Assembly: GCA_030625775.1 (NCBI GenBank)
Contig: DAOUQC010000004.1
Span: 1 to 64,000 of the forward strand
Direction of reading: 5' to 3'
DNA: 64,000 bases
Source of the DNA: Verrucomicrobiota bacterium
GTDB lineage: Bacteria; Verrucomicrobiota; Verrucomicrobiia; Verrucomicrobiales; DEV007
Shown here: piece after piece, positions 26,837 to 29,881 of the stretch
Layout of the letters: each line of letters begins with the position of its first letter
How positions within the stretch are numbered: the first letter of the stretch is position 1
Notes under the pieces: model-generated
The model's input: only the letters and a program-made list of their open reading frames with translations
Databases searched by the model: none
What the model was told of the DNA's origin: nothing
Program-made: the position numbers and the translations under genes

Positions 26837-28780
26837 TCATCCTACCGCTTTTTTACTGGCAGGTTTTTGGATCTTCGGCAGCGATTTGCCCTTGTTTTCC
26901 GGATCTGCTGGTTTTGCTGCCGGGCGGGAAACCGGAGCTTCCTCCTTCTCGAATTTCTGCAGCCGCTCAACAAATTCCCGGTTGGCAGAATCCAAATCGA
27001 GCGCTTTGCGCATGTGCTCTAAAGCTTCGCTCTTCATTCCCAATTGAAAAAAAGTCTGCGCCAGATGGTCAAATACCACAGGATCAGGTTCCTCCATCAT
27101 CTCCATCGATTTGGTCAATTCAATACGCGCTTCCTCAAAGCGCTTTTTCTTGAAATAAAACCACCCGAGACTGTCCCGGACCGCCCCGGATTCAGGAGTC
27201 AGATTGAATGCTGTTTTGATCAGTTCCCCGGCTTCATCAATATGCATATCATTCTCCAGCCACATGTATCCCAGGTAATTGTACAATTGTGCAGTGAAGG
27301 CTTTGCTCTCTTTATCCTCGGCACCGCTTTTCGCCAGAATTTTCATTGATTCCCGGAATAATCCCGCCGCCTGATCAAGATTTCCTGCCCGTTCCGCCGC
27401 TGCTCCGTACTGAAAGTAAAATTGCTCGTCCAACAGAGCTGGCCGCGCTTCTTTTGCTAACAGGATCGTGCGCTCAAAGGAGGGCAGGGAAGCTTCATAC
27501 TGCTTTGCTCTCGAGCGGGATACTGCCAACAAAAATACCACAAACGGCTCTTCGGGGTAATAATAAGCCGCTCGTTCCAACACCGGCACCGCCTCTTCCG
27601 GGCGCCGTGCAGAAAGCAACAGTTGGGCAAGATCCATGTATTCCGATTCGCTGCCTTTACTGATTTTCAATGCTTGCTGCAAATAATGTGCTGCCTTAAC
27701 CGGATCCTTACGCTCTCGATAGATTTCGGCCAGCAGTCTGTTCGTCTGGGCATCACGGGGGTCGATTTGTAACACTCTGCGCAAAATTTCAATCACTTTT
27801 TCCTTCTGGCCCAGAACCCGGTACACCGAGGCCAGTTTTTTTCTAAGATTGAGCTGATCGGGATGTTCGAGAATGATTTTCTCGTAGAGCTCACGCGCTT
27901 TCTGCGGCTGATGCGAGGAATGATAAAATCCGGCAACTGCCTCCCGGGGCGCTACCTGACCTTTGGAGTGATCCAATACCTTTTGATAAATACCATTCAA
28001 CAAGATCGGTTTTTGACCCACACTGGTATTCAAAGGCCAGACTCCCTGCGCAATCGTCGCAATTTTCAGCCAGAAGTGGGGATCCAGAGATTTTTGTTTC
28101 AAAGCCTGGTCGATTGCTTTTTTCGCCTTGTCTGTCTGACGGCTGACTAAATACAAACGAACGAGGTGATCGTATACATCCGCATTATCGGCAAACTTTT
28201 GTGCTGCTTCTTCAGCCAGTAGCATTGCCCTCTCCCTGTCTGCTGCTGTATCCGCGTGGTAGGTGAGTAAATATTCCGAAAAAGACAGGTAGGCCCGGGG
28301 GTCTTCCGGATTGAGTTGCAAGGATTTTTCCAAAACAGCACGTGCCTCTTTCAATCTTCCTCCGGATGCCTGCAGATAAGCCACCCGTCTTGCCAGGTCC
28401 ACATTGGCAGGACTCAGACGCAACACCTCCCGATATTCCCTCAAAGCACCATCCAGATCTTTTTTCTTATCAAAGGCAAGTGCCCGGGAATAGTGGGCCA
28501 GAGCTTCAGCGCGCAAATGACCTGCCTTGAGCAAGCTCAAGCGCTGATTCGGTTGGAAAAACCGATCCACATAAATTTCGGCACGATCATCCAACCCGCC
28601 ATCCTTCGGATTTGCGGAATTTGTTTGATTGGCTGCAACCAATGAAGTGGCCACAGCACAAAAAACAGTGAGCCCTGTCAGAGCAGCACTGATTCTCTTA
28701 TTGATCAAAAACCCTGTGCTTTGAAAAGCTCTCCAGCAATTGACCCGCGAAGGTTGATTGCTGGATTGTTCAGGGTTCAT
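26837..28780 (-). CDS. Secreted or membrane-anchored TPR repeat protein
   Basis: A 647-residue protein with a hydrophobic N-terminal signal or anchor (ISAALTGLTVFCAVATSLVAA), followed by about a dozen tetratricopeptide repeats (for example ALAHYSRALAFDKKKDLDGALREYREVLRLSP and RDSLGWFYFKKKRFEEARIELTKSM). The C-terminal tail is Lys/Pro-rich. Likely a scaffold for protein interaction in the envelope; partner unknown. It lies 16 bp downstream of the small ribosomal-protein-like gene on the same strand. Confidence 0.88.
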   Translation of the reverse strand: MNPEQSSNQPSRVNCWRAFQSTGFLINKRISAALTGLTVFCAVATSLVAANQTNSANPKDGGLDDRAEIYVDRFFQPNQRLSLLKAGHLRAEALAHYSRALAFDKKKDLDGALREYREVLRLSPANVDLARRVAYLQASGGRLKEARAVLEKSLQLNPEDPRAYLSFSEYLLTYHADTAADRERAMLLAEEAAQKFADNADVYDHLVRLYLVSRQTDKAKKAIDQALKQKSLDPHFWLKIATIAQGVWPLNTSVGQKPILLNGIYQKVLDHSKGQVAPREAVAGFYHSSHQPQKARELYEKIILEHPDQLNLRKKLASVYRVLGQKEKVIEILRRVLQIDPRDAQTNRLLAEIYRERKDPVKAAHYLQQALKISKGSESEYMDLAQLLLSARRPEEAVPVLERAAYYYPEEPFVVFLLAVSRSRAKQYEASLPSFERTILLAKEARPALLDEQFYFQYGAAAERAGNLDQAAGLFRESMKILAKSGAEDKESKAFTAQLYNYLGYMWLENDMHIDEAGELIKTAFNLTPESGAVRDSLGWFYFKKKRFEEARIELTKSMEMMEEPDPVVFDHLAQTFFQLGMKSEALEHMRKALDLDSANREFVERLQKFEKEEAPVSRPAAKPADPENKGKSLPKIQKPASKKAVG

Positions 28781-28796: not shown

Positions 28797-28901
28797 CTAG
28801 GACTTGTAACGCAAACGCTTCTTATGGCGATTGCGTTTGCTCAACTTGCGCCGCTTGTGCTTGTTGATCTTAGTTTTACGTCTTTTCTTGAGCGAACCCA
28901 T
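28797..28901 (-). CDS. bS22 / AURKAIP1-COX24-type small basic ribosomal protein
   Basis: A 34-residue protein, too short for common ORF cut-offs. The translation begins MGSLKKRRKTKINKHKRRK and continues LSKRNRHKKRLRYKS. More than half of the residues are Lys or Arg. This matches the pattern of the AURKAIP1/COX24 domain (mitochondrial mS38) and the actinobacterial small-subunit protein bS22, which begins MGSVIKKRRKR. ATG at 28901, stop TAG at 28797. It lies between hisG (89 bp upstream) and the TPR gene (16 bp downstream) on the same strand. Predicted role: binding near the decoding-site rRNA of the 30S subunit. Confidence 0.85.
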   Translation of the reverse strand: MGSLKKRRKTKINKHKRRKLSKRNRHKKRLRYKS

Positions 28902-28990
28902 ACTTTGTTCTTCGTGTTTTCATGCCTTGCCTTCCCGGTTTTTTCTTCCCGCTCCCGAGAAGAAAGACACTGGTGGCATTCAGGCGTCGT

Positions 28991-29881
28991 TTAATTGACT
29001 ACCTTATTGAGAGTATATTCTATAATGCCCTCCGCACCCAATGCTTTTAATTCAGGAATGATATCGCGCACCGTTTTTTCAGAAATCACCGTTTCCACGG
29101 CAACCCATCCATCCTGTGCCAGGTGCGAAACCGTTGGCTGACGCAGCGACGGTAGGGTTTCTATCAGCTTTTGCAACTGCTTTTCCGGCAGGTTGAGCTT
29201 CAGACCCACCATATCCCGGGCAAGAAGGGCTGCTTCCAACAAAAGCGTGAGCCGCTTCATCTTTCCCTGCTTCCATTCGTCTTTAAAACTGTGTGGATTG
29301 GAAATGAATTGAGGATAGGACTCCATCAAGGTGTCCATGATGCGTAAGTTGTTAGCTCTCAAGGAAGAACCTGTTTCGGTAATATCAACGATCGCATCCA
29401 CCAATTCGGGAACTTTCACCTCAGTCGCTCCCCAGGAAAACTCGACTTCGGCATTCACACCATGCTTTTCAAGGTAGCGCTCTACCAAACCGGTTGCCTC
29501 GGTCGCAATGCGTTTGCCCTCGAGATCTTTTACCGTTTTGTATGGCGAATCCTCCGGAACTGCCAATACCCAACGTGTAGGATTGGAAGTCGCACGGGAA
29601 TACTGCAAATCACAAAGCACCTCCACCTCGGCCTTGTTTTCTGCAACCCAATCCCTCCCTGTTATCCCACAGTCCAAAAAACCATGGTCGACATAACGGC
29701 CGATTTCCTGGGCCCGTAGCAGGCGGATCTCGATTTCCGGATCGTCGATCATTGGCCGGTAAGACCGCGATGCTCCACTAATCTGATAACCTGCTTTATC
29801 GAATAGTTCGAGCGTAGGTTCTTGCAGGCTGCCTTTCGGAAGGCCTATTTTTAATTTTCTAGGTGCAGTGTTGTCTGACAT
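28991..29881 (-). CDS. hisG: ATP phosphoribosyltransferase, long form
   Basis: First enzyme of histidine biosynthesis. At 296 residues it is the long, self-regulated form with a C-terminal ACT-like histidine-binding domain, so no HisZ partner is needed. Motifs: [17 protein letters not shown] at the N terminus, [10 protein letters not shown], the phosphate-binding region [17 protein letters not shown] and the C-terminal region [30 protein letters not shown]. No other his biosynthetic gene is adjacent; a PHP histidinol phosphatase lies about 17 kb away. Confidence 0.96.

Follow-up and report, generated by a model that had tools for sequence, protein, structure and literature searches.

A probable bS22-type ribosomal protein gene in Verrucomicrobiota, with related copies in phage contigs

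A 34-codon frame in a 64,000-nucleotide stretch of DNA from a Verrucomicrobiota bacterium (the window) is, with a probability that we put at about 0.88, the verrucomicrobial gene for the small-subunit ribosomal protein bS22. It encodes a conserved, selected, single-copy basic peptide of 34 residues, and solved relatives suggest where in the ribosome this peptide would sit. bS22 itself is already known, and the window gene is a further member of its family. Cryo-EM originally revealed bS22 in Actinobacteria, Bacteroidota and Borrelia; on this assignment it is near-universal in Verrucomicrobiota too, where it scores below the cut-offs of curated models. This matters for ribosome models, for the comparison of drug sites and for the question of a common origin of bS22, mS38 and eL41.

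A conserved small gene behind hisG

The minus-strand frame running from 28901 to 28797 encodes the basic peptide MGSLKKRRKTKINKHKRRKLSKRNRHKKRLRYKS. An overlooked 34-codon gene had been proposed here in a preliminary description that gave no strand; the plus-strand reading of 28797-28901 does not give the peptide and was rejected, since only the minus strand yields a 34-codon ATG-to-stop frame. The three genes of the region all lie on the minus strand:

26837..28780, minus strand: TPR-repeat protein gene, 647 aa, directly downstream, starting 16 nt past the bS22 stop
28797..28901, minus strand: bS22-type ribosomal protein gene, 34 codons plus stop, ATG to stop
28902..28990, minus strand: hisG-bS22 spacer, 89 nt
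28991..29881, minus strand: hisG-like gene (ATP phosphoribosyltransferase), directly upstream of the bS22 frame

We take the upstream gene to be hisG from the preliminary description and by recognition, not from a family search, and the TPR name is likewise assumed from that description. The layout described there holds: hisG ends at 28991, 89 nt ahead of the bS22 start, and the TPR frame begins at 28780, 16 bp beyond the stop. The 20 nt preceding the ATG contain no Shine-Dalgarno (SD) core. Promoter-like and terminator-like sites were looked for in the spacer and none was found; the promoter scan gave two sites against 1.4 in shuffles, none of them in the spacer.

Lysine and arginine make up 19 of the 34 residues (56%), and no other ORF among the 446 in the window that are 25-45 aa long reaches 45% K+R. 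Free-standing bS22 proteins have about 28-34 residues and roughly 55-65% K/R, a range into which it falls. The organism's own genome has a single copy of the gene.

Conservation in Verrucomicrobia had been named beforehand as one way to check the frame. A1, a profile built from 15 verrucomicrobial variants, has a match (E ≤ 0.01) in 374 of the 383 Verrucomicrobiota genomes and none in the other nine; when completeness of 90% or more and contamination of 5% or less are required, the count is 360 of 369. The reversed profile, which controls for composition and not for convergence, matched 0 of 57 relatives. Pfam COX24_C matches the frame in 55 of these 57 (E ≤ 1), and in four it scores above the gathering cut-off. 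The window differs from the relative loci L002 and L007 by six and three silent changes, respectively, with no amino-acid change, and from the more distant L003 by 11 silent and three replacement changes. In all 14 loci fetched via the TPR protein, tblastn detects the frame upstream of the TPR gene, including three (L004, L005, L008) that a first pattern search had missed. L006 and L010, which are Akkermansiaceae MAGs, carry the gene as well. The loci compared for their neighbours were the best-scoring ones and hence lean to the window's own taxonomic order. Of the 82 distinct loci that extend 900 bp or more upstream, 70 have a hisG match on the same strand no further than 400 bp upstream (74 of 86 overall). 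A TPR gene follows within 700 bp in 37 of the 84 distinct loci whose downstream sequence reaches 1200 bp or more. Loci without hisG are L042, L068-L074, L191, L207 and the class-level L094 and L095. An open frame this short could arise by chance, but the phylum-wide conservation, the silent-only changes in near copies and the reversed-profile control contradict such an origin, which we consider hardly credible and reject; the proposed gene is real.

Family assignment and structure

The peptide matches two families only: Pfam COX24_C (PF08213), at 19.7 bits against a gathering cut-off of 23, and NCBIfam bS22 (NF047430), at 16.4 bits over 29 residues against a cut-off of 34. These sub-cut-off scores are not decisive, because both models miss the structurally placed bS22 of F. 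johnsoniae (E ≤ 10); the Borrelia bS22 piece likewise gives no NF047430 match (E ≤ 10). The NF047430 cut-off does not define the wider bS22 family, and the model appears to represent its actinobacterial form. bS22 outside Actinobacteria is likely under-annotated, and since both curated models pass over a solved member, annotation may skip the window gene.

Searched against all PDB sequences, A1 finds six chains at E ≤ 10, every one a bS22 or mS38 chain. The best is 7jil_5, F. johnsoniae bS22 (E 1.9e-4), followed by 8a22 mS38 (0.023), 9i5v (AURKAIP1/COX24 domain; 0.059), 8fmw bS22 (0.1), 6xyw mS38 (0.26) and 9evs mS38 (1), and the reversed profile matches none. A single-sequence phmmer search of the PDB is weak (best E 0.21), a K/R-rich string of 34 residues carrying little information for homology. 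Because COX24_C and bS22 are the sole families matched and the PDB matches are confined to bS22/mS38 chains, a bS22/mS38 gene is the best reading. The type assignment of the preliminary description thus stands. Actinobacterial bS22, which it had also named, is rejected as the nearest relative, given the NF047430 score and the best PDB match; among solved structures the Bacteroidota protein of 7jil is closest.

The window protein shares its length, K/R content and an HKRxK plus NRHKK core with the bS22 proteins of F. johnsoniae (7jil) and Borrelia (8fmw), whereas its MGSLKK start and C-terminal RLRYKS tail are missing in those chains. An RLRYKS-type tail is found in most of the 36 distinct proteins from 125 cellular loci, many of them overlapping, and is absent from L094 and L095 (which end RTWQK) and L204 (stop after RHKK). 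The likeness to actinobacterial bS22 (NF047430) is weak, over 29 residues. With the C-terminal domain of mS38/Cox24/AURKAIP1 (COX24_C) it has a K-rich KxNKHKxRK core in common. However, mS38 is mitochondrial and has a long N-terminal region that includes a targeting sequence, while the window protein is bacterial and, at 34 aa without an extension, corresponds to the domain alone.

The strongly biased composition raises the possibility that this is a conserved basic peptide acting elsewhere, in RNA or DNA binding or as a cationic antimicrobial, and that it resembles bS22 in composition and helix only; free C. acnes bS22 is indeed reported to inhibit bacterial growth and cell-free translation (PMC10085706). 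Yet the conserved residues other than K/R, namely H15, N24 and H26 (with S3 in the case of 7jil), align with solved bS22, the reversed profile matches nothing among the 57 relatives or in the PDB, and the gene is retained in nearly all genomes searched, so that we regard a role outside the ribosome as improbable. An AlphaFold2 model of the lone chain, made from the single sequence, predicts one helix over residues 4-33 (mean pLDDT 94.7). No break in this helix is indicated, and the bend described for solved bS22 is thus not seen in the model.

Predicted place in the small subunit

Solved bS22 is described as sitting among h2, h27, h44 and h45 and touching 23S H67 or H68 (PMC10618245, PMC10085706). 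Mass spectrometry of Borrelia ribosomes is reported to have missed bS22 (PMC10618245), and trypsin would cut the window peptide into very short fragments. By analogy with these relatives, the window protein would be translated from the hisG transcript, and its helix would fit underneath the decoding centre, in the pocket that h27, h44 and h45 of the 16S rRNA form, and neutralise rRNA charge there. By touching 23S H67/H68 it would add a further bridge between the subunits, and in this way it would steady h44 and the path of the mRNA. In yeast mitochondria, mS38 is reported to stabilise h44 and to favour initiation on some messages (PMC6582356). The same report describes mS38 as required for efficient mitoribosome biogenesis, which would also suit a factor that occupies the same pocket transiently, in 30S assembly or hibernation, rather than a permanent ribosomal protein. 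Purified 70S ribosomes of other phyla are described with resolved bS22 (PMC10618245, PMC10085706), and we hold such a transient factor to be slightly less probable even than a peptide acting outside the ribosome.

The eukaryotic and archaeal proteins eL41 and aL41 have a basic helix said to fill the same pocket as bS22 (PMC10085706, PMC10618245). Convergence has been suggested (PMC6582356), as has one common name (PMC10085706). As a separate observation, the control genomes of Methanocaldococcus jannaschii and Sulfolobus acidocaldarius give COX24_C matches (E ≤ 1), which could be aL41 or chance.

The 16S end of the window's genome (16S in L209) carries an intact anti-SD, GGATCACCTCCTTT, although the organism hardly uses SD leaders. 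By a crude start choice applied identically to both sets, SD 5-mers precede 0 of 52 window ORFs (2 at the background position) as compared with 11 of 42 in E. coli (background 2), and SD 4-mers four window ORFs (background 6) as compared with 15 in E. coli (background 2). Akkermansia is listed as one of the organisms in which SD sequences are scarce and CCUCC is conserved (PMC10783764). bS21 is present in 18 of the 19 genomes searched, that of the window organism included. The association of SD scarcity with bS22 is at most suggestive, and a link of mS38/bS22 to leaderless or SD-less initiation has been proposed (PMC6582356). Since SD leaders are rare here though the anti-SD is intact, a role of bS22 in SD-independent initiation is a plausible further step.

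bS22 genes in phage contigs

Scans of 2.9 million viral contigs revealed bS22 in four, belonging to two unrelated phage groups; genome searches for the cellular gene covered Verrucomicrobiota. The first group came from the A1 scan, which found IMGVR_UViG_3300009790_004215 (10,389 bp) and IMGVR_UViG_3300012920_005951 (7,726 bp). A scan with a Bacteroidota-type alignment gave the 297,623-bp contig IMGVR_UViG_3300027771_001853, and pattern and profile scans added a second contig of its group, IMGVR_UViG_3300031519_007017. The phage genes are as follows:

L096 1713-1817, plus strand: group 1 phage bS22, 9 nt past an endolysin gene, verrucomicrobial-like, with C-terminal tail
L097 731-835, plus strand: group 1 phage bS22, 9 nt past an endolysin gene, verrucomicrobial-like, with C-terminal tail
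L218 5001-5093, plus strand: group 2 phage bS22, in the 297,623-bp phage record
L219 1489-1677, plus strand: bS21 of the 297,623-bp phage
L222 8820-8912, minus strand: group 2 phage bS22, in the related 18,050-bp contig

The group 1 proteins, MGSLKKRRKTKINKHKLRKRRRSTRHKKRLRFKG and MGSLKKRRKSKINKHKLRKRRRSTRHKKRLRNKR, score above the Pfam COX24_C cut-off (25.6 and 23.6 bits), and their genes differ by 10 silent and three replacement codons (dN 0.08, dS 1.3). In the PDB, the core of the L096 protein has its best match in an mS38 chain, 8a22 (E 0.03); bacterial bS22, 7jil, comes after it (0.41). By PHROGs matches, bS22 is followed in this group by HTH-like, ParB-like, SSB and replication genes, 'HTH-like' being a label that we assigned ourselves. 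In a related phage (primase 74%; L213/L102) the backbone is the same but bS22 is missing, as it is from the other 78 related-endolysin loci (L101-L178) among the best 80 of 258. The group 1 endolysin matched 0 of 288 Verrucomicrobiota genomes in a host search, and the best cellular matches of the phage protein, at 82% identity, are spread over several families and single out no donor.

In group 2 the protein is of a Bacteroidota/Spirochaete-like type. The 297,623-bp contig encodes bS22 MSGAKKKKPSKISTHKRKKQSRKNRHKTKK alongside tail sheath, DNA polymerase and bS21 genes. At E ≤ 10 the peptide matches in the PDB 8fmw bS22 (2.1e-4), 7jil (4.3e-4) and 9i5v (0.004) and no others, while Pfam COX24_C matches neither this phage nor its bS22 peptide. 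The two group 2 genes differ by nine silent codons and one replacement codon, and two neighbouring proteins common to both contigs are about 64% identical. Three further pattern matches (L223, L225, L226) lie in other frames and were judged chance. The viral contigs contained no actinobacterial-type bS22 motif, and five named phage records (four huge uncultured phages and one Flavobacterium phage) no bS22. No PHROGs family matches either phage form (E ≤ 0.01); a tblastn search of INPHARED with host and phage bS22 also gave no match, which is uninformative given low-complexity filtering.

A possible route to ribosome takeover

Because the sequence types differ and the gene sets are unrelated, the two groups probably acquired bS22 separately. 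The copies suggest that phages may swap their own bS22 into host ribosomes. In its full form, our proposal is that bS22 serves phages as a ribosome-takeover gene and was acquired by at least two unrelated groups of them, the small phages of group 1 and the huge-phage group 2, probably out of host lineages from different phyla. Beside h44/h45, close to the anti-SD end of 16S, the phage copy would displace the host's bS22 and, late in infection, bias initiation towards phage messages where the host makes little use of SD leaders; the window gene would then be an example of the displaced host version. We infer both the entry of phage bS22 into ribosomes and the hosts that these phages meet, and we consider the odds of the whole proposal to be even.

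Virus-encoded ribosomal proteins are known, 14 having been reported (PMC6375957). The term bS22 does not occur in the main text of that paper or of PMC9723584, and the titles and abstracts searched held no report of a virus-encoded bS22, although other papers may exist. The phage copies offer a testable case that bS21 is not the only protein with which viruses alter the small subunit close to the decoding region. Phage-encoded bS21 is described as expressed late in infection (PMC6375957, PMC9723584). Phage bS22 would act in a similar way, as a small, basic, phage-borne 30S protein near the mRNA path, although the two proteins are unrelated.
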